Shown one piece after another: positions 18,904 through 31,838 of a stretch of DNA of 43,819 nt; within the stretch, counting starts at the first letter, position 1; each line of letters begins with the position of its first letter. Origin of the DNA: Thiotrichaceae bacterium (GTDB taxonomy: Bacteria; Pseudomonadota; Gammaproteobacteria; Thiotrichales; Thiotrichaceae); contig WFRR01000038.1 in the NCBI GenBank assembly GCA_015486375.1, positions 1 to 43,819 on the forward strand. Reading direction: 5' to 3'. The translations under genes were made by a program, and so were the position numbers. Under the pieces are notes generated by a model. The model was not told where the DNA came from and ran no database searches. It saw only the letters and a list, made by a program, of their open reading frames with translations.

Positions 18904-20811
18904 CTAATTAGTGTTTGATTTTTTTAGAATAGCAATTTGTTGTTCATACGCTTTAGTAAACTCTAAGCCAAATAAACGATTAAAATCGTCTTCAGCTTCT
19001 TCTTGTATCGTTTCATATAATGCTTCAAACAATCCCCAAAGTTTCGCTTGACGACGTAGCGGAATAATGGCACTAATTGGACTATCTTTTTCTAAACGTG
19101 CACTGAGTTTTTTTGGTTCAAAGCGGGCTAGCATATAATTTAACGTCCCCTGTATTCCAGAAATTACTGCCAATTGGTGCGCTCTAATATCGTCATAAGC
19201 TTCTAGTAAAGATTGTTGTGGAGCAAGATAGCTTTCTTTTTGATCGACTAATAAGCGTAATAAAGCATCTTCGACCGTAATTGAAAACTTTAAGGGGTTG
19301 TTTTCAATTGGACGGATTGTGGTGACATCCATACGCATTTCATTTTTAATACTGGTACGAGAGTGTAAAATATCCAATGTTCCCTGAATACTGCTACGAA
19401 AAAGTTCGCCAATTTGCTTAAAATCCATTGATTCAGCAATCTTGTTTTCAATATCCTTATCATCAAGATTTAAACCCTGTAGAAACTGTTTAATTGAATC
19501 TTGATCTGTCTTTACATCATGAGCCATTGGCTTTTCAGAAATATTTCGAGCTTGAAAATCTTCTTCTTGAACTGTCTCTACATCCCGAACCCTTGGTTTC
19601 TCAAAAATATTGTTTTCTTGAATTTTTTTCTGGACAGAGGGCTTTTGTACTTGTGCAGGTTTAGGAATTGCTATATTTGGGTTGGGACGATTGCTCGGTG
19701 GATTAGGCTTTTTCTCTTCAGCAATATTGGTTGCATCACTATCACTGGGTTTTTCAATAGCGGGGGTTTGAATTTCAGTTTTATCTAGGGCTTGAATAGG
19801 TTCAGCAGTAGGTGGTTTTTCACCTAAACCTGCAAATAAATTATTGAAATCTGATTCTGGTTCTGATTGGTCAGTATCTACATCGACTGCGAAGCTTTTG
19901 GCTATATCCTGATTAAACCAATTTTCATCCCATTGCTCCTCAGATTGTGTTGATTCTGACGCTTGATTTTTCGATGAATGCTCTTTTTTAGTACTATCTT
20001 GTTCAAAAAAATTGCCATTCCAGCTTTGATCTTTACTTTGCTCAGATGATTCTACCCGACTTTCTAATCTAGACGCAGGTTTAGGTATTCTTTCACGTGG
20101 GGTTGCAACAACGGGAGGCGTGAAATTATCATCAATAATATCGGCTACTGGTATGGATGAGGGCTTATCGCTAGCACTGACGCTGGCTGAAAGATAATCG
20201 TCTTGCCACATATCGCCAAACGGGTCATTTTCAATATTTTCAGATTTAGGCGTAATAGCATTGTCATTCGAAAATTCATCACTAATGTCTGAGAAAGGAT
20301 CATCGCTCAGCGAGGCTTTATCGCTATATGAATGAGAATTTTGCTTAGAAAAAGGGTCATTATTACTATATGCATCAGTCTGTTGGTTAGCTAAAGGGTT
20401 ATCTATGCCTGAAGGTGAATCTGAACGATATGAATCCGTCTGTTGGTCGGTGAAGGGATTATCTGTAATTGAATGTGATGAATCTGCGGAAACAGGAATG
20501 CTCACACTGATTTCATAAATGCCCATTCGCAAGACATCGCCATCATTCAAAGAGGTAGAACACCCCTTACCTAAGGCCTGATCAGAGTGATTAACAAACA
20601 CCCCATTCGTACTGGTATCTGTCAGAATATACTGTGTGTCACGGTATTCAATCGTAGCATGTTGCCCTGATAGGTATTTTTGTTCATCGGGTAAAACCCA
20701 TGAATTACCTTGTCCTCTCCCAATACTGCCACTCTCCTGTCTAAATTCATGCTGAATTGAATGACGAGGCGTATATTGATCCGTTGATAAAACATTCAAA
20801 ACAAGTGTCAT
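18904..20811 (-). CDS. tagH: FHA-domain protein TagH of the type VI secretion system
   Basis: FHA domains bind phosphothreonine; TagH/Fha proteins are the substrate and reader of the PpkA-PppA switch. The 635 residues have an N-terminal FHA domain (about 25-95: SIGRGQGNSWVLPD, LSGQHATIEY, DTSTNGVFVN). A disordered Ser/Asp/Gln-rich linker of about 320 residues follows, with a degenerate repeat near 115-165 (NPFTDQQTDSYRSD, NPLANQQTDAYSNN, DPFSKQNSHSYSD). The C-terminal T6SS-FHA domain (about 425-630) contains the MDFKQIGELFRSSIQGTLDI helix and ends AEDDFNRLFGLEFTKAYE. It is the first gene of the leftward run, divergent from tssA. Confidence 0.92.
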   Translation of the reverse strand: MTLVLNVLSTDQYTPRHSIQHEFRQESGSIGRGQGNSWVLPDEQKYLSGQHATIEYRDTQYILTDTSTNGVFVNHSDQALGKGCSTSLNDGDVLRMGIYEISVSIPVSADSSHSITDNPFTDQQTDSYRSDSPSGIDNPLANQQTDAYSNNDPFSKQNSHSYSDKASLSDDPFSDISDEFSNDNAITPKSENIENDPFGDMWQDDYLSASVSASDKPSSIPVADIIDDNFTPPVVATPRERIPKPASRLESRVESSEQSKDQSWNGNFFEQDSTKKEHSSKNQASESTQSEEQWDENWFNQDIAKSFAVDVDTDQSEPESDFNNLFAGLGEKPPTAEPIQALDKTEIQTPAIEKPSDSDATNIAEEKKPNPPSNRPNPNIAIPKPAQVQKPSVQKKIQENNIFEKPRVRDVETVQEEDFQARNISEKPMAHDVKTDQDSIKQFLQGLNLDDKDIENKIAESMDFKQIGELFRSSIQGTLDILHSRTSIKNEMRMDVTTIRPIENNPLKFSITVEDALLRLLVDQKESYLAPQQSLLEAYDDIRAHQLAVISGIQGTLNYMLARFEPKKLSARLEKDSPISAIIPLRRQAKLWGLFEALYETIQEEAEDDFNRLFGLEFTKAYEQQIAILKKSNTN

Positions 20812-22069: not shown

Positions 22070-22819
22070 ATGTTATGGAATCTTCGTAAAAAATATCAAT
22101 ATACATCCTTAGGTATCAGTGATAAAGGTCAAGTACGTGATCATAATGAAGATGCTTTCTTAGATAAAAATGAACAGGCAATCTGGGTAGTTGCCGATGG
22201 CGCAGGTGGACATGAGTCAGGCGAAGTTGCCAGTCATATGATCGTTGAGTCCCTATCTAAAATTGAAAAAAAATTAATTCTCAATCAAGCCGCAAAAGAT
22301 ATTAAACAACGCTTATCTTATGTAAACAGCCAGTTAATCCGATTAAGTGGCGGTGAAAGCTCGAATCAATTAATTGCGAGTACAGTATGTATTTTAGTAA
22401 TTCGTAAAAATAAATGTGTCTGTCTTTGGTCAGGTGATAGCAGAATTTATTTATATCGTAATAAAAAATTGACCTTACTCACTCCTGATCATAATCGTGC
22501 TGATGAATTTATTGCAGCAGGATTTACGCCAGAAGAAGTTGAAAAACACCCGATTGCACAACAATTAACTCATGCTGTGGGGGTTGAAGAACCTTTATTT
22601 TTAGATCAGCAGTTCTGTGAGGTACAAGAAAATGACCTGTTTTTGCTGTGTAGTGATGGAATTTATAAAGAATTAACTGAAAGAGAAATTGAAGAATATT
22701 TACAAGAAGAAAAGGAGGTCAATGCTAGCGTTCGTGACCTCACCAATATCGCGATGAAACGAGGTGCGCGCGACAATATTACGGCACTGCTGGTTAACGT
22801 TAGTCGTTGTATGAATTAA
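22070..22819 (+). CDS. pppA: PP2C-type protein phosphatase PppA of the T6SS switch
   Basis: Mn/Mg-dependent Ser/Thr phosphatase expected to reverse PpkA phosphorylation. The 249 residues carry the metal and phosphate motifs of the Stp/PppA group: VRDHNEDAFL, WVVADGAGGHESGEVAS, LWSGDSRIYLYR, LTHAVGVEE, LFLLCSDGIYKELTEREI and ARDNITALLVNV. It is a single-domain soluble protein of normal size. It follows tssA after 73 bases and precedes ppkA by 38 bases. Confidence 0.92.
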   Translation: MLWNLRKKYQYTSLGISDKGQVRDHNEDAFLDKNEQAIWVVADGAGGHESGEVASHMIVESLSKIEKKLILNQAAKDIKQRLSYVNSQLIRLSGGESSNQLIASTVCILVIRKNKCVCLWSGDSRIYLYRNKKLTLLTPDHNRADEFIAAGFTPEEVEKHPIAQQLTHAVGVEEPLFLDQQFCEVQENDLFLLCSDGIYKELTEREIEEYLQEEKEVNASVRDLTNIAMKRGARDNITALLVNVSRCMN

Positions 22820-22857: not shown

Positions 22858-24879
22858 ATGAAAATCAAAAATTATAAGATAAAACAGGAAATTGGCAAAG
22901 GGGGTATGGCAACCGTTTACCTTGGAGAGCATATTAGTCTCAAACGTGATGCAGCTCTTAAAATTATGTCACCTGAACTTGCTGCTAATAAGCAATTTGA
23001 GCAAAGTTTTTTAAAAGAAGGCGAAATTGTTGCCAAGCTAGAACATCTTAATATTGTTGGAATTTATGATATTGGTAGAACGGAAGATGATGCAAGTTCT
23101 TTTATGGCAATGGAATATTTGCGCGGTGGTAGTCTTAAAGAAAAAATAGATAATAATGAATCCAATCATCAGGGCTTAGAATATCAACAATGTGAAGATA
23201 TTTTGACACAAGTCGGAGCAGGTTTAGGGCATGCTCATCAACATGATTTTGTACATCGTGATATTAAACCCGCTAATATTTTATTTCGTCAAGATGGCAC
23301 CGCCGTACTGACTGATTTTGGTATTGCGAAATTACAAGATAGTGTAGGAGATTTAACCCGTTTAGGTTATACCCTTGGCACATTGCAATATATGAGTCCT
23401 GAACAAGCCAGTACCACAGAATTAGATCAACGTTCTGATATATATAGTTTGGGCTTAGTGTTCTATGAAATGTTGACGGGGCATAAAGCTTATAACGCCG
23501 ATACAACCGCTCAAGCCATCTATCAACATGTCAATGAGCCACCGCCCTACTTACCCAATCAATATGCTTATCTACAACCTGTTATTGACAAAGTACTGGC
23601 TAAAAATCCAGATGATCGTTTTTCTACTGTCGATGATTTTGTCACAGCGGTTAAAAACGTGGATAAAAATGCGTATTTAGCCGATGATAAAACAGTTATT
23701 TATAATGCCGCTACTCCCGTTAAAATGGCTAAACAGACAGTGAGTTCCAGTCAATCAGGTAAGTCATCATCTTCCTTAGTTAAACACCCCTTATTTATAA
23801 GCTCGATAATTGGAGTGATTGCCTTATCAGTATTTGCTTTTTTACTCTCTTCTGCTGAAGAAGATGATAGTAACCTAGCTAGCAATGCCACTAATTCTAA
23901 TTTTATTTCAGAAAATTCAATTAAAATTGAAGCTAGCAAAGACATTGACACTAATTCAGAAGAAAACCTGAAAGAACAGGAACCTAAGGGTCAATTGGAA
24001 AATACAGAGATAGATGCAGAAAGTAATATAAAAATAGATACAGAAAATAGTATAGAAGTAGAGAAACCCTCTAAGCCTGATAAACCTGAAAAAGCAAAGT
24101 TTGGAATATTGAAGCTAAAAGCAATTTCTCAAAAAACGGGTAAACCTATTAAAGCTGATTTTATTGTTAAACGAATAGATAAAACAGCGTTTCAACAACA
24201 AAGTTCCAATACTTCGCTCAGCCATGCTGTACTCAATATTCTGATTTCACCCGCTGCAGCACAAAAAACATATTCCATGAAAAAAGGTACAAAGAAGTTG
24301 CGAGTGCTTGACGTTTATTCAGCCCAATTTAAACTGGCGGTGGGTCACTATAAAATAACGGTAAAAAATACATATTCAAGTGTTAGAAAAACAGTTTCCA
24401 TACAATCTGATCAAGCATTATCAAAGGAAATAATACTTAAATCTAAGCCTGAACCCAAACTTGAACCAGTGGAAGAAGTCTCTTCTACACCACCTAATCA
24501 GCCCACTCCAGTGACTAGTGAAACTGAAAGCCCAGATCCAACGGATAATAATCCAAATACAGGTAATCCAACAAACAGCAACTCAGATAATACTGTTCCT
24601 AATACAGACAGTAACGTGGGCAATCCAACAGACAATAATTCAGATAATACTGCTCCTAATACAGACAGTAACGTGGGCAATCCAATAGACAATAACTCAG
24701 ATAGTACTATTCCTAATACGGATAGTAACTCTGACAATAATATGCCATCAACAGGAGATAATTCAGTGGATGAAAATCCTGATAGTAATACCTCTACAGA
24801 AAATCAACCACTACCCATATTATTGGATAAATTAAAGATACCCAAAGAGATACAGGAAGTGATCAAGATTATAAAATAG
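22858..24879 (+). CDS. ppkA: Membrane-anchored Ser/Thr protein kinase PpkA
   Basis: Hanks-type kinase expected to phosphorylate TagH and so switch on the T6SS. The 673 residues have a kinase domain at about 6-265 with IGKGGMATVYLG, Lys35 in AALKIM, HRDIKPANIL (133-142), LTDFGIAKL and the MSPEQAS segment. One membrane helix follows (about 308-330). The outside part has a beta-rich segment (about 405-530: GILKLKAISQKTGKPIKADF to GHYKITVKNTYSSVRKTVSI) and an Asn/Asp/Thr-rich tail with 19-residue repeats. I do not see the von Willebrand domain found in some PpkA proteins. It converges with the heme-HAMP gene, leaving 10 bases between stops. Confidence 0.88.
   Translation: MKIKNYKIKQEIGKGGMATVYLGEHISLKRDAALKIMSPELAANKQFEQSFLKEGEIVAKLEHLNIVGIYDIGRTEDDASSFMAMEYLRGGSLKEKIDNNESNHQGLEYQQCEDILTQVGAGLGHAHQHDFVHRDIKPANILFRQDGTAVLTDFGIAKLQDSVGDLTRLGYTLGTLQYMSPEQASTTELDQRSDIYSLGLVFYEMLTGHKAYNADTTAQAIYQHVNEPPPYLPNQYAYLQPVIDKVLAKNPDDRFSTVDDFVTAVKNVDKNAYLADDKTVIYNAATPVKMAKQTVSSSQSGKSSSSLVKHPLFISSIIGVIALSVFAFLLSSAEEDDSNLASNATNSNFISENSIKIEASKDIDTNSEENLKEQEPKGQLENTEIDAESNIKIDTENSIEVEKPSKPDKPEKAKFGILKLKAISQKTGKPIKADFIVKRIDKTAFQQQSSNTSLSHAVLNILISPAAAQKTYSMKKGTKKLRVLDVYSAQFKLAVGHYKITVKNTYSSVRKTVSIQSDQALSKEIILKSKPEPKLEPVEEVSSTPPNQPTPVTSETESPDPTDNNPNTGNPTNSNSDNTVPNTDSNVGNPTDNNSDNTAPNTDSNVGNPIDNNSDSTIPNTDSNSDNNMPSTGDNSVDENPDSNTSTENQPLPILLDKLKIPKEIQEVIKIIK
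24583..24741 (+). repeat. 57-base tandem repeat inside ppkA
   Basis: Two full units (24583-24639, 24640-24696) and a 45-base third unit encode SDNT(V/A)PNTDSNVGNP(T/I)DNN, with a diverged relic just upstream (GNPTNSN). The array keeps the reading frame and lies in the predicted extracytoplasmic tail. Copy number is likely variable between strains. Confidence 0.85.
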
Positions 24880-24889
24880 ATAGTATTGT

Positions 24890-25762
24890 TTAAGCTCCGA
24901 GCATACTCATTGCTTTTTCTAGGCTGCGTTTCATTCGATTAAATGATGCACCTAGGATAGCAATTTCATTTTTACCCTTATCATTAAATTCAGGTAAATC
25001 TTCTTCGCCTTTACTCATTCTATCGGCAACATCTGCCATTTTTATAATAGGTTTAACTACTAAAAAGTGTAATAAAACATTTAAGATAATGATAATAAAA
25101 ACAAATATCGCTGCTAAGACACTCATAAATAGTACGAATGCTTCATTCGCATTTTGAATAGGAATTTCCATTGGTACAGTAATAATTTGTGCGCCAACAA
25201 CCTCATTTAATTTCCAGCCGAAACCATTTGCTGTGCCGTATAGTTTAATCATTGATTCAGGTGCAGCATCAACAGTGCTATGACAATTTAAACAGGCTGG
25301 ATTGGTTATTTTAATGGGGCTGGCAAAATAAAGTGATTCACCTGACAAACCTTGCCGTTTTCCAAATACCTGTTTCAATTCACTATCATTATTAAAACGT
25401 TGAATAATATCATGTTCCCAATCAATGGCACGGTTACGGGGGTTAGTTGGATTTAAGGTCGCTTCTTTATAAGTGTATTCAGGATATTTTTTTCGCAAAC
25501 GATCAAACGTTTGTGTAGCGGCATAAGCAGGTACAGTTTGTGGTAAAAAATTACGCTTATTTTGTACTTTGAGTAAGGGGCGAACTTCCTTGACCGTATA
25601 AGCACGCATTGCAAGTGCAGATTCCATCATAATTTTAGCGCGATCGAGAATTTCTTTTTGAGCATTGTTTTGCAAAATGGTATAAGAACTTATTCCTGCA
25701 ATTGCAAATCCAATCAACAATACCAAAATTATAATTAAATTAAATTTTAATGCGAGTTTCAT
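24890..25762 (-). CDS. c-type-heme (DUF3365-like) membrane sensor with a terminal HAMP domain
   Basis: The 290 residues have an N-terminal membrane helix (about 9-30) and a periplasmic domain (about 31-205) like the Tll0287/DUF3365 family, with one haem-binding motif CLNCH at 157-161. A second membrane helix (about 209-235) and a HAMP domain (about 236-285: VKPIIKMADVADRMSKGE to NEIAILGASFNRMKRSLEKAM) follow, and the protein stops there. No kinase, GGDEF or methyl-accepting domain is attached, so output must pass to a partner. The start is firm: AAGGAGAG precedes the ATG, and the ATG overlaps the stop of the upstream gene (TAATG). Confidence 0.85.
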   Translation of the reverse strand: MKLALKFNLIIILVLLIGFAIAGISSYTILQNNAQKEILDRAKIMMESALAMRAYTVKEVRPLLKVQNKRNFLPQTVPAYAATQTFDRLRKKYPEYTYKEATLNPTNPRNRAIDWEHDIIQRFNNDSELKQVFGKRQGLSGESLYFASPIKITNPACLNCHSTVDAAPESMIKLYGTANGFGWKLNEVVGAQIITVPMEIPIQNANEAFVLFMSVLAAIFVFIIIILNVLLHFLVVKPIIKMADVADRMSKGEEDLPEFNDKGKNEIAILGASFNRMKRSLEKAMSMLGA

Positions 25763-26436
25763 TATTTCTCTCCTTCAGGAACATTTTTAACGGTGTTATC
25801 ACTTTTCTTATTAGCGTCAGAATCAGAAGGCTTTGGCATATCCCCACTTTTTTTCTTATCTTCAGTGTTAGAAGAGTTTTCAGAGTCAGAAATTTTTACT
25901 TTATCCATTCTGCATGATTCAGGTAACGTCTCGTAGGCTTTAGTAAAACCCAATAAACTAAATTTTGCCTCTTGAACTCCTTTAGACGGCCATGTTGGCC
26001 AGAATCTTAGTTGTAGTTTGACATTCTGTCCTGCAATAAATTGCTGAGTAATCGTGGTAATATTCTTTTCGAATACAACATCAACCGCATTATCAACCTT
26101 ATCAAGAGGAATGAAATCTTTATCATCTATCTTGATACCAATATCATTAAATCCCGCATCAATATCCGATTTTGTTTTTAATATCAATGATTTATCTGTA
26201 ATTTCTAGCCAAATATGGGTTTTTCCTTGACCATCATCAATAGTAACTTTAGGACTTAATAAAAAACATTTAGACCGCGAAGCATCGTCTCCTTCTTCTA
26301 AGTTAGGTAAACGCCAGTTTTCTTGTTTTTCTACTTTATCCTCTGCTTCATTGGCGGAAACAGGAGTTAAAAATAATAAGTAAAATAGAAAAAGTAGTAC
26401 GTAGGGTTTCTTATGAGATAGATTTTTTTTATTCAT
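25762..26436 (-). CDS. Exported protein of unknown family
   Basis: I do not recognise this 224-residue protein. It has a signal peptide (KKPYVLLFLFYLLFLTPVSANEA). A compact mixed region follows (about 38-175), with TIDDGQGKTHIWLEITDKSL, VVFEKNITTITQQFIAGQNV and LQLRFWPTWPSKGVQEAKFSL, and two Cys residues (in SKCFLL and ESCRMD) that could form a disulfide. The tail (about 180-224) is charged and disordered. Its ATG overlaps the kinase stop by four bases (ATGA) and its stop overlaps the heme-HAMP start, so the three are probably made together. A periplasmic partner of the heme sensor is an inference. Confidence 0.75.
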   Translation of the reverse strand: MNKKNLSHKKPYVLLFLFYLLFLTPVSANEAEDKVEKQENWRLPNLEEGDDASRSKCFLLSPKVTIDDGQGKTHIWLEITDKSLILKTKSDIDAGFNDIGIKIDDKDFIPLDKVDNAVDVVFEKNITTITQQFIAGQNVKLQLRFWPTWPSKGVQEAKFSLLGFTKAYETLPESCRMDKVKISDSENSSNTEDKKKSGDMPKPSDSDANKKSDNTVKNVPEGEK

Positions 26437-27863
26437 GCTTTCATCCTCTTGATAAAGTCTTTGCGATGTTCATCATTATCTAATTCATCAGCTAATTGGG
26501 TTATTAATGCTTCCTGAGAGTCAACGGTTTGAGCAATCTTATTGACTAATATTTTAGCAATTGGACCAAGATAATAAGAGAGACAATTGATTGCATGGCT
26601 TAAGCCATCTTGAGTAATTGCAGTCACAGAATGACTTTCCTTATTTTTTTCATGGAAAATACTAATATTTTCAGCTTCTTTTGGTGGAAAGCTGCCCCCA
26701 GACTGTTTAATAAATTGTTGACGTTGCTGTTCTGATGAAATATGTTTTGCGAGTGACTGAACTAACTGCATTGGATCACTGGTTTGTGCTTGCGCTTTTT
26801 TTATTAATATTTTTGCGATAGGTCCAATTGCTTGAGCTAAATTAATACTTAAGCGATCAGGTGAAACTGTCATATTTTCAATATTGATTGATTGCGCTTG
26901 CAGATTAATGCTGGGGGGAGAGTTATTCAGTATGAGTTTATTTGGTTTAAACAGTAAATTAGTTTGTTGAGAACTTGAAGTTTCTTTTTGAATAAAATTT
27001 AAAACTTCAGTAGTTGTTTGAGGACGTTTTTTAGGTTCAGAGTGAATCATCCACTCAATGAGTTGAATAAGGGATTTAGAATACTGTGTACCCAATTTCT
27101 TGAAGCTAGCAGTAGTTGGGTCTGCCCTTTTTTGATAGCTTGCACTAATACGCAATGTCGCAAAAGGAGGTGCAACCCCTGTCATACAATGATAAATGGT
27201 TGCACCGAGTCCATATATATCTGTCCAAGCACCTTGATTATCGCCATTATATTGTTCAAATGGAGCATAACCTGGGGTAATAACCGCAGTTAGCGCAGTA
27301 TTTTGATTACTTGCTGTGGCTCTTGCAGAGCCAAAATCGATTAATACAGGGGTATGATCAGCTCTGAGTAAAATATTAGAAGGTTTAATATCACGATGTA
27401 GAATGTTTTGCTGATGCACATCATATAAACCCTGTAATAAGGGAGTCATAATGTGGTAAATGGCATCTTCAGGCAGTATTTTATCGTGTTTGAGTTTTTG
27501 AGATAAAGAGATACCTGCTTCAAAATCCATAATTAAGTAAGCAGTTGCATTTGCCTGTATATAATGGGAAATACGTACAATATTATCATTACGAAATTTT
27601 GCAAGAGTACGTGCCTCGTCTAAGAAACGCTGTAAACCATACTGGTAAAACTCTTGATCTTGCTTATTCTGTTGAGAAACCGTATTACAATGACTTTTTC
27701 GATAGGCAACATCAGTAGGGAAATATTCTTTAATGGCTACCGTTTGGTTTAATACATGATCATAAGCTTGATAAGTTATACCGAACCCACCAATACCTAA
27801 AACCTTTTGGATTTCATACGATTCAATTCGTGTACCTGAAGGTAATACCTGTGTGTGATTCAT
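26433..27863 (-). CDS. Ser/Thr protein kinase with a duplicated C-terminal GPIAKIL module
   Basis: The 476 residues start with a Hanks-type kinase domain (about 16-290): VLGIGGFGITYQAYD, Lys45 in VAIKEYFP, HRDIKPSNILL (156-166), LIDFGSAR and TPGYAPFEQY. After a linker come two copies of an approximately 50-residue helical module. Copy one is at 339-388 (AIGPIAKILIKKAQ to QQFIKQ) and copy two at 422-473 (YLGPIAKILVNKIA to KDFIKR). Similar modules occur at the end of other bacterial kinases and adenylate cyclases (memory; name not certain, perhaps DUF8082). There is no membrane helix, so it is cytoplasmic. First gene of the three-gene set. Confidence 0.9.
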   Translation of the reverse strand: MNHTQVLPSGTRIESYEIQKVLGIGGFGITYQAYDHVLNQTVAIKEYFPTDVAYRKSHCNTVSQQNKQDQEFYQYGLQRFLDEARTLAKFRNDNIVRISHYIQANATAYLIMDFEAGISLSQKLKHDKILPEDAIYHIMTPLLQGLYDVHQQNILHRDIKPSNILLRADHTPVLIDFGSARATASNQNTALTAVITPGYAPFEQYNGDNQGAWTDIYGLGATIYHCMTGVAPPFATLRISASYQKRADPTTASFKKLGTQYSKSLIQLIEWMIHSEPKKRPQTTTEVLNFIQKETSSSQQTNLLFKPNKLILNNSPPSINLQAQSINIENMTVSPDRLSINLAQAIGPIAKILIKKAQAQTSDPMQLVQSLAKHISSEQQRQQFIKQSGGSFPPKEAENISIFHEKNKESHSVTAITQDGLSHAINCLSYYLGPIAKILVNKIAQTVDSQEALITQLADELDNDEHRKDFIKRMKA

Positions 27864-29697: not shown

Positions 29698-30150
29698 TTA
29701 GTCTCTGCTTTCTTGTCTTGCTGCGGGTGTCGTACTTGTAGCAGTTTGAGCATCGCTTACATCACGAATATTTTTTTGTACAGTGATCACTGCAAAAAGG
29801 CATAAGGTAAATGCCATACCATAAAAGCCTTTTTCACTTAATGACATGGTGGCATTAATTAAGCCAATCACCAATAGTACAATAGACGTTGCTAAGGTAC
29901 TCCAACTCATTGCCATAAAAATTTTGGTGACAGGAATGCCTTGTGCTTGGTCTCTAATGATTTTCTGTAGTGTCACTGCGGAGAACATCCCTAGTAAAAA
30001 AATAGCGAAATAAAAACCTTTCTCATTCAATTGAATATCGGCATTCCAAAGCCCAACGAGGTAACCTAGTATACCAATAGCTAAAGCTGCCCATGTTGAA
30101 TTGATATAAGTAGGCGTTGGAGCATTAATTATCATTTGCTTAGAACGCAT
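29698..30150 (-). CDS. YiaA/YiaB-family inner-membrane protein
   Basis: The 150 residues hold two copies of the YiaA/B two-helix unit: WAALAIGILGYLVGLW...EKGFYFAIFLLGMFSAVTLQKIIRD and WSTLATSIVLLVIGLI...EKGFYGMAFTLCLFAVITVQKNIRD. This makes four membrane helices. The family has no proven function. Its ATG overlaps the stop of the RsiV-like lipoprotein gene (TAATG), so it ends a three-gene run that begins at 31838. Confidence 0.85.
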   Translation of the reverse strand: MRSKQMIINAPTPTYINSTWAALAIGILGYLVGLWNADIQLNEKGFYFAIFLLGMFSAVTLQKIIRDQAQGIPVTKIFMAMSWSTLATSIVLLVIGLINATMSLSEKGFYGMAFTLCLFAVITVQKNIRDVSDAQTATSTTPAARQESRD

Positions 30151-30983
30151 TAATTTTCCCCTTGATGAGTTAATGCAGCCAGTAAGCCATTGGGATCAAT
30201 TAGATTTTTAATTTCACTATAGGGAATTAATATCTCTGTTGCACCCAGTGCATAAGGGGCAATATCATAAGCATTAAAGTAAAATAGCAGTCCTTTTTCT
30301 GTAATCAAAAAATTGTCATTGAGAGCAAAACCCCTTTCAAACCAATAGCCTGCTTTTTCTAAGTTAGCATTACGACTGAGTTCTTTGACTTGCCTAAATA
30401 TTTTCTCACCCGTAACATTTAATTCAGCTTCATAGCCTGCCAATAAAATATCGGATAATGCCAATGACTGCATAATATCAAGATCAATATTTAAAAACGC
30501 TTGACTATACGCGCCATGTGCACCGCCTGTATAACTGGATTCATTAATAGAAAAACTAATAATTTGCGGGGTATTGAGTATGACCTCTACAACCTTTTCA
30601 AGATTCCAATTCGCAGGGTGTTCAAGTGTTTCTTTTTTATAGTCTTGTATAAACAAATACGCCATTTGTTCAATGCTTTGCGGTTGTACTTCATTATCAC
30701 TCGACAGTATCAGTGCTTTGATTTTTTGATTCAGTTGTTTCTGCATCTCAGGTTCAGGTGCGCTTTGAATATCAGGGTACTGAAGTTTGATAGAGACACA
30801 ACGTTGATTTTCTTCAGTAACTTGCGGATCGCCTAAGCAAGCACCATCTTGACGTGAAAAAGTGCTATTTTCATAGCGAATTTTTTCCTCTTGCTCTGAA
30901 AAACCTAAACCACTATCACAGGCAGTTAGACCAAGGATAGAGAAGATAAAAAGTATATAAATAATCGGGTTTAATCGTTTCAC
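30150..30983 (-). CDS. RsiV/DUF3298-domain lipoprotein
   Basis: The 277 residues start at a GTG with GAAGAAG upstream. A lipoprotein signal ends LTAC with acylated Cys22. The body shows the DUF4163/DUF3298 pattern of the RsiV extracellular domain: SINESSYTGGAHGAYSQAFL, LALSDILLAGYEAELN, FLITEKGLLFYFNAYDIAPYALGATEILIPYSEI (shown in parts). RsiV-like domains bind lysozyme in Bacillus, but this protein has no anti-sigma or membrane domain and no sigma factor gene is near. It lies 27 bases after a paralogue. Confidence 0.82.
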   Translation of the reverse strand: MKRLNPIIYILFIFSILGLTACDSGLGFSEQEEKIRYENSTFSRQDGACLGDPQVTEENQRCVSIKLQYPDIQSAPEPEMQKQLNQKIKALILSSDNEVQPQSIEQMAYLFIQDYKKETLEHPANWNLEKVVEVILNTPQIISFSINESSYTGGAHGAYSQAFLNIDLDIMQSLALSDILLAGYEAELNVTGEKIFRQVKELSRNANLEKAGYWFERGFALNDNFLITEKGLLFYFNAYDIAPYALGATEILIPYSEIKNLIDPNGLLAALTHQGEN

Positions 30984-31010
30984 AGTCGCTTCTTCAATAT
31001 ATTTAAATCG

Positions 31011-31838
31011 TTAAGGGTCGATATTCCGAATATCAATCACATCGACAAGTGCTTCATAGGGAATAAAAAGTCGGGTCGTACTCACTACATAGGTCGCAAT
31101 TTCATCGCGATTATAGTAGAACACAATCCCTTGCTTTAAGACTGAAAAATTTTTACTCAAACTGAACTGATTTCGTTCAAATTCAAACCCTGCTTGGGCT
31201 AAATCGGCTCTTTTTGAGAGCGTATGTAATTGCCTAAAATATTGTTCAGCAATCTTCTTTAATTTTTGTTTGCTCTGCCTTTTATTTTTCGTCTTACTCC
31301 CCTTTAGAATATCACTAAGTTTAAGTATTTTCCCTGTATTCAGATCAAGGCTCACTAATCGCTTATCAGTGAAGCTATGCGCGCCACCCGTGTAACTATC
31401 CTCATTATCTTGCAGACTTAAAATATTCTCATTGAGGAAGATCACTTCAATTTTTTTATTTTGTTCCCAATTACCTGAAGAGGCTTGATCATTCTGGATA
31501 TAATCTGAATAGTCATCGATAAATTTTTGAGAAAAATTGGCGATACCTGTGATTTTTTGATCATTCGTACGGGTATAACAAATATGTTCTTCGCTGATAT
31601 ACTGATTAAGTTGTACTGCTGAACGTGTGCCGAGAGGTGAAACAAAGAAAGGATAGCTAATATGGATAGTCGCACATACATCACTATTATCTGACTGGCA
31701 GCTTGCTGATTTTTTTATATAGTTTTTAGTAATGTAGCTAACTTTTTTAATATTTTCATGTATTTCTTGTCCAACGATGTTATTGATCAATAACATACCA
31801 CTGCTTAAACATGTCAATAATAATATCATCCTGAACAT
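31011..31838 (-). CDS. RsiV/DUF3298-domain exported protein, tandem paralogue
   Basis: The 275 residues begin with a signal-like helix (MILLLTCLSSGMLLINNI) and lack a lipobox. The body matches the neighbouring lipoprotein in order and motifs: EDSYTGGAHSFTDKRLVSLDL, LKLSDIL, FERNQFSLSKNFSVLKQGIVFYYNRDEIATY (shown in parts) and LFIPYEALVDVID. The pair looks like an old tandem duplication in which one copy became membrane-anchored by lipid. A basic stretch (KTKNKRQSKQKLKK) is found only in this copy. Function unknown. Confidence 0.8.
   Translation of the reverse strand: MFRMILLLTCLSSGMLLINNIVGQEIHENIKKVSYITKNYIKKSASCQSDNSDVCATIHISYPFFVSPLGTRSAVQLNQYISEEHICYTRTNDQKITGIANFSQKFIDDYSDYIQNDQASSGNWEQNKKIEVIFLNENILSLQDNEDSYTGGAHSFTDKRLVSLDLNTGKILKLSDILKGSKTKNKRQSKQKLKKIAEQYFRQLHTLSKRADLAQAGFEFERNQFSLSKNFSVLKQGIVFYYNRDEIATYVVSTTRLFIPYEALVDVIDIRNIDP

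Follow-up and report, generated by a model that had tools for sequence, protein, structure and literature searches.

Af1503 of Archaeoglobus fulgidus is a HAMP-only receptor to which Af1502, a protein consisting of a STAC domain alone, is translationally coupled (PMC4834066). Receptors of this type were described as having no recognisable effector module (PMC4834066), and the role of the STAC domain was described as unclear (PMC13022988, PMC9100948). The locus examined here lies in a 43,819-nucleotide stretch of DNA from a Thiotrichaceae bacterium (the whole stretch is hereafter referred to as the window), and it has, in common with Af1503/Af1502, a HAMP-ended receptor with an RSLxxAMxxL tail and a neighbouring gene for a STAC-like domain with an LGPxA motif. 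The two systems differ in that the window has a haem Cache domain as the sensor and two STAC-like domains that are fused to a Ser/Thr kinase. In the SLC5-STAC histidine kinases (CbrA, CrbS), a STAC domain is likewise placed between an input in the membrane and a kinase as the output; these proteins, however, are single polypeptides with a transporter as the input and a histidine kinase as the output.

Two further systems are relevant. One is the sCache_heme-TM-HAMP protein of P. azotoformans (WP_033902098), the only HAMP-bearing member of its family that has been studied: it binds NO selectively (koff ~6e-4 per second), does not form a stable complex with O2, and has no axial Cys, while the stand-alone members of the family resemble redox proteins in their behaviour (PMC12889525). 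The window receptor shares with it the periplasmic c-type haem Cache domain, the two TM helices, the terminal HAMP, and the lack of an axial Cys. Serine/threonine kinases or a partner are not mentioned in the text of that preprint (PMC12889525); the Ser/Thr kinase partner is the addition of the present analysis. The other is the PpkA-PppA-Fha threonine phosphorylation pathway of the type VI secretion system (T6SS), in which genes for a Ser/Thr kinase, a PP2C phosphatase, and an FHA protein occur at one locus, as they do in the window. The TM and periplasmic parts of PpkA belong to the kinase chain itself (PMC12607579), whereas the kinase examined here has no TM-like segment, and the receptor and the kinase are separate proteins. 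We interpret the genes as encoding a split transmembrane receptor kinase, with a probability of about 0.72 for the explanation as a whole.

Gene organization and domain anatomy

The three genes are minus-strand ORFs encoding a kinase, an exported protein, and a receptor (Table 1). The ORF coordinates agree with the original prediction in the overlaps of 4 and 1 bases and in the convergent orientation relative to ppkA. As was also predicted, the TagQRST sensors are absent: no TagQRST-like gene was found among the window ORFs scanned. Genes for a bc1 complex are also present in the window. Separately, two adjoining genes with PdaC and DUF3298 domains (30150-31838), apparently a tandem duplication, were seen there.

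Table 1. Positions of the features in the window
Feature	Position	Strand	Basis
Ser/Thr kinase with two C-terminal STAC-like domains, 476 aa	26433..27863	-	Pkinase E 8e-43; no TM-like segment
Protein kinase domain, residues 16-286	27006..27818	-	PF00069 match
STAC-like repeat 1 (IGPIA motif)	26703..26849	-	profile A3 E 7.6e-20 (repeat in seed set); AF2 four helices; Foldseek to Af1502 prob 0.97
STAC-like repeat 2 (LGPIA motif)	26445..26588	-	profile A3 E 4e-18; AF2 four helices
Exported accessory protein, 224 aa, predicted IalB/MotY-N-like beta sandwich	25762..26436	-	alignment A2; AF2; VIA
HAMP-ended receptor, periplasmic c-type haem Cache domain, 290 aa	24890..25762	-	PF11845 + PF00672; two TM-like segments
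CLNCH haem c attachment motif, residues 157-161	25280..25294	-	sequence; sole Cys residues of receptor
HAMP, last domain of receptor, residues 234-282	24917..25063	-	profile match; best PDB match is HAMP of Af1503, 4gn0
RSLxxAMxML tail after HAMP helix 2	24899..24928	-	common to Af1503 and other HAMP-ended receptors
Canonical PpkA-like membrane kinase, convergent neighbour	22858..24879	+	Pkinase E 2e-49
PppA-like PP2C phosphatase	22070..22819	+	PF13672, Stp1 family
T6SS FHA protein, likely phospho-target of the pathway	18904..20811	-	PF20232 and FHA

The first gene had been read as a cytoplasmic Ser/Thr kinase, which its domain match and the lack of a TM-like segment confirm, and the motifs of its kinase domain are intact (GxGGFG, VAIK, HRDIKPSN, and DFG). 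The last gene had been read as a membrane protein with a periplasmic c-type haem domain and a terminal HAMP. This is also correct: the protein has two TM-like segments and matches PF11845 (Tll0287-like, sCache_heme; E 1e-41, 142.9 bits against a curated cut-off of 24.1) and the HAMP family (PF00672, E 3e-9), and its only two cysteines both belong to CLNCH, an instance of the CXXCH haem c motif. The protein ends 8 residues past the HAMP, with no domain beyond it. By its domain order, the receptor is of the Af1503-like HAMP-only type: the HAMP is the last domain and an output domain is absent, a feature that is conserved among its relatives.

The middle gene encodes a protein with a signal-peptide-like N-terminus, and two cysteines and an FWPTWP motif are common to its homologues (alignment A2). 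It was originally described as belonging to no known family. This stands at the sequence level, where the searches of Pfam, NCBIfam, and the PDB sequences provided no family; what has to be amended concerns the fold. The AF2 model resembles IalB (3dtd; VIA Z 10.8, rmsd 2.9, 123 residues) and the N-terminal domain of MotY (2zf8; Z 8.8), so that an IalB/MotY-N fold is predicted. The identity to these proteins is only 12-15%, and the exported protein has a motif and a Cys pair of its own. Since a Pfam sequence match is absent, we take the relation to IalB as a likeness of fold only.

Tandem repeats at the kinase C-terminus

The original prediction overlooked one feature: the C-terminus of the kinase consists of two tandem helical repeats of ~50 residues each. 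Their motif is (I/L)GP(I/M)A, in which G13 and P14 are invariant in alignment A1. In the AF2 model, each repeat forms four helices, with a pLDDT of about 90 or more in most blocks of the bundle, and the motif is located at the turn between the first two helices (2-12 and 16-26). The STAC domain of Af1502 has the same arrangement, with its motif between helices 1 and 2 (PMC4834066). The predicted repeat thus has the STAC features, namely, a four-helix bundle composed of two hairpins and an LGPx(x)A motif between h1 and h2.

The database comparisons point to the same protein, with individually weak values. Among 350,542 PDB chains searched with Foldseek, Af1502 (5A1Q) was the only high-probability match (0.97 and 0.96 for two chains; TMt 0.58, E-value 1.0), and every other row had a probability of 0.16 or less. 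Af1502 was also the top row in VIA, with a Z of 5.5 that is low in absolute terms (rmsd 2.7, 58 of 69 residues). In the search of 177,635 PDB sequences, it was the top match of the tandem repeat profile, with a weak E of 0.13, and ranked seventh for the single-repeat profile (E 0.23). Two other candidates gave little. The STAC regions of the SLC5-STAC histidine kinases, tried as a sequence bridge, align with the repeats in register but weakly (hhalign probability 15%). Pfam names no family for the C-terminal region of the kinase, and a match to NRBF2_MIT was below the cut-off of that family and was seen in one member only.

The weak sequence statistics, together with the fact that helical bundles are common and small ones are easily matched, could be taken to mean that the repeats serve as a lineage-specific helical module for the dimerisation of kinases and cyclases, with a likeness to STAC that arose by convergence and no relation to the binding of HAMP. 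We regard this as improbable: the same motif is placed at the same loop as in STAC, the best structural match is the only STAC protein for which coupling to a HAMP-only receptor is known, and the partners are of the same type, HAMP-ended receptors, despite their differing sensor domains (see below). These lines, each weak individually, and the shared genomic partner make it very probable that the repeats are STAC domains, as judged from the alignments and the predicted models.

Pairing of the receptors with repeat-bearing proteins

In a genome scan, close relatives of the receptor were located at 80 loci, of which 77 were testable, the other three ending inside the kinase gene at a contig edge. 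In 74 of the 77, which are spread over the Pseudomonadota, a repeat-bearing protein is encoded on the same strand, beside the receptor or within one gene of it, and nearly all of these proteins have two copies of the repeat. No STAC protein was found beside the haem receptor in the other three (L106, L109, and L112). The commonest order is the receptor followed by the kinase, and the exported gene or a gene for a FecR-type or peptidoglycan-binding envelope protein is often located upstream. The order in the window (kinase-exported-receptor) is a variant among the relatives, and in three loci (L040, L177, and L184) it is extended by a cyclase gene at the end. In an even sample of the phylum (299 genomes), the four strongest full-length HAMP-ended haem receptors, that of the window included, all adjoin such a kinase. 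A fifth, weaker receptor (G344) has no STAC gene within the short flank.

The reciprocal search, in which the repeat profile alone was used on 229 Gammaproteobacteria, provided 21 loci, two of which are cut by contig ends. A HAMP-ended receptor adjoins the repeat gene in 18 of the 19 testable loci: 16 of these receptors are of the haem type and two are of the dCache type (L191 and L192), the latter being partnered by a small protein with one repeat. The exception (G508, L187 5777-7636) is a kinase that has both repeats and an extra N-terminal region and adjoins no HAMP-ended receptor.

The partners that are free of a kinase domain are informative for the function of the repeat. Those of the cyclase type keep the repeats (L039, L041, L047, and L178). 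Moreover, dCache HAMP-ended receptors that were found by HAMP similarity alone adjoin roadblock-like proteins with a diverged STAC repeat, and a Ras-like GTPase gene is present beside these sets where the neighbourhood was read. Because the repeat is kept in both the cyclase and roadblock types, STAC is probably the docking part. The genome of the window itself has such a set on another contig (C133; L236 4186-7245), in which a dCache HAMP-ended receptor and a roadblock-like protein with a diverged C-terminal STAC repeat are accompanied by the gene of a Ras-like GTPase. L237 has this set of three genes as well, and the dCache receptor with the roadblock-like STAC protein was also seen in L125, L126, and L128.

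A corresponding feature exists on the receptor side. The tail RSLxxA(M/I)xxL occurs in 81 of 87 HAMP-ended receptors and in none of 17 HAMPs that are followed by another domain, and Af1503 also has it. The STAC domains would thus meet the HAMP end together with this tail.

The occurrence of the trio could be a chance clustering of genes with no joint function, since the exported gene is missing from most loci and the gene order varies. However, the pairing is conserved in dozens of species of several classes, and the adjacency recurs in scores of genomes, which leaves this possibility hardly any weight. In the original prediction, a receptor gene usually separated from the other two was named as speaking against a functional trio. 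This was not observed: a kinase or a kinase-like STAC protein adjoins the receptor in nearly every locus, although the exported gene is optional. The predicted envelope haem sensor acting through a Ser/Thr kinase is therefore well supported by the conserved pairing, and, taking the gene neighbourhoods and the models together, we consider with good confidence that the HAMP receptor and the STAC kinase form one signalling unit.

As a mechanism, we propose that a change in the periplasmic haem Cache domain passes through the membrane helices to the terminal HAMP, and that the two STAC domains of the soluble kinase, acting in trans, recognise the HAMP dimer together with the C-terminal tail. This recognition would change the activity of the kinase or its position at the membrane. 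The IalB-fold exported protein may be an optional accessory beside the sensor domain in the periplasm. The likely targets of the kinase would be the FHA-containing proteins encoded nearby.

Two loci with altered genes were also observed. In one genome (G012, L122 9884-12963), the receptor frame is interrupted by a stop and has no STAC kinase beside it, while the exported domain is located inside a long protein that also contains TPR and peptidoglycan-binding parts. In another genome (G021, L117 8435-9106), in which no T6SS marker was found, the kinase gene seems to be reduced to a C-terminal part with one repeat, while the receptor and the exported gene look intact.

Putative signal and linkage to the T6SS

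The haem Cache domain would bind a small ligand, most likely NO, or report the redox state of the haem. NO is the leading ligand because the P. azotoformans protein with the same architecture binds it and the window receptor has no Cys outside CLNCH. By analogy with this one characterised relative, we give NO as the sensed signal an even chance. An endogenous source of NO is not evident, since the genome of the window has no NirS; an obligate link to denitrification was rejected, as strong NirS matches were found in only 4 of 21 cases. Alternatively, the domain may be a redox or electron-transfer sensor. The haem c with its CXXCH motif, the redox behaviour of the stand-alone family members (PMC12889525), and the bc1 complex encoded in the window fit such a role, which we nevertheless hold to be somewhat less likely, because the sole studied HAMP-bearing relative binds NO selectively and, like the window receptor, lacks an axial Cys.

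The trio was originally suggested to be an alternative input of the T6SS. The pair adjoins a T6SS cluster or is located inside one in ten loci, the window among them, and these belong to alpha-, beta-, and gammaproteobacteria. One genome (G018) has a single run of TssM-TagF-PppA-PpkA-FHA/SLT-kinase-exported-receptor, the trio being collinear there with the genes for TagF, PppA, PpkA, and an FHA protein. In G259, the kinase is convergent with TagF; in G187, the pair is upstream of TssK-TssL-TssM-PP2C; and in L038, it is beside TssA-TssB-TssC-Hcp. T6SS-linked pairs are also carried on plasmids by three Caballeronia, Paraburkholderia aromaticivorans, and Skermanella rosea, and all five kinases have both repeats; in Skermanella rosea, the pair is within the run tssM-tagF-receptor-kinase-tssH. 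In seven clusters (the five on plasmids, G187, and G259), the pair kinase was the only Ser/Thr kinase seen in the scanned regions and stands at a place where one expects PpkA. In a tree of 108 receptors, calculated with a quick model and containing some long branches, the T6SS linkage changes 6 times, at least 4 of them by well-supported branches, and a single clade is rejected. As the sample was not drawn to estimate frequencies, we claim recurrence and give no rate.

The T6SS is, however, not required for the pair, because TssK was found in only 16 of the 34 pair-bearing genomes (a count that leaves out G190) and was absent from the other 18; an obligate association is thus rejected. An occurrence mostly in genomes without a T6SS had been named as adverse to the original suggestion, and the outcome is about even. 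Of that suggestion, the linkage in ten loci of three classes, with seven cases as the sole kinase, is retained, while the arrangement is a minority one. Recently, TssW was named as a partner of PpkA; it was rejected as the identity of the receptor, since TssW is an outer-membrane protein.

These results bear on whether the pair is specifically a T6SS input, with the kinase acting in place of PpkA or in support of it, and with secretion gated through the haem receptor according to the NO or redox state. The ten linked loci, the seven clusters with the pair kinase as the only one in the scanned region, the recurrent changes on the tree, and the collinear run in G018 speak for it. As about half of the pair genomes lack TssK, only 1 of the 80 relatives' loci is linked to the T6SS, and PpkA is already present in the window, we entertain this specific role only tentatively and prefer the split receptor kinase as the general description. 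In several T6SS clusters, the pair would probably do the job of PpkA, and where its kinase is the only one of the cluster, control of the T6SS by the pair is rather likely. In the organism of the window, the pair may feed the same phospho-switch alongside PpkA; because the canonical PpkA stands beside the trio, such an input is possible but doubtful.

A broader view, to which we give slightly less than an even chance, is that the HAMP-ended receptors of bacteria and archaea are a general class signalling in trans via STAC on interchangeable outputs (a Ser/Thr kinase, a nucleotide cyclase, or a roadblock/GTPase system), and that T6SS clusters have repeatedly taken up the haem version as a split substitute for PpkA that is gated by NO or the redox state. 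At any rate, the locus provides a tractable bacterial HAMP-receptor/STAC pair with an assayable output enzyme, and the NO-binding sCache_heme-HAMP proteins gain a likely downstream partner. A direct route is also proposed that leads from the NO or redox state of the envelope to Ser/Thr phosphorylation and, for some species, further to T6SS activity.

Finally, a gene for an FHA-lytic transglycosylase (SLT) protein was found to adjoin the trio in two relatives (L118 6084-7796 and L117 10532-12217). From its domain composition, this protein could be a phosphothreonine reader that acts on the cell wall.
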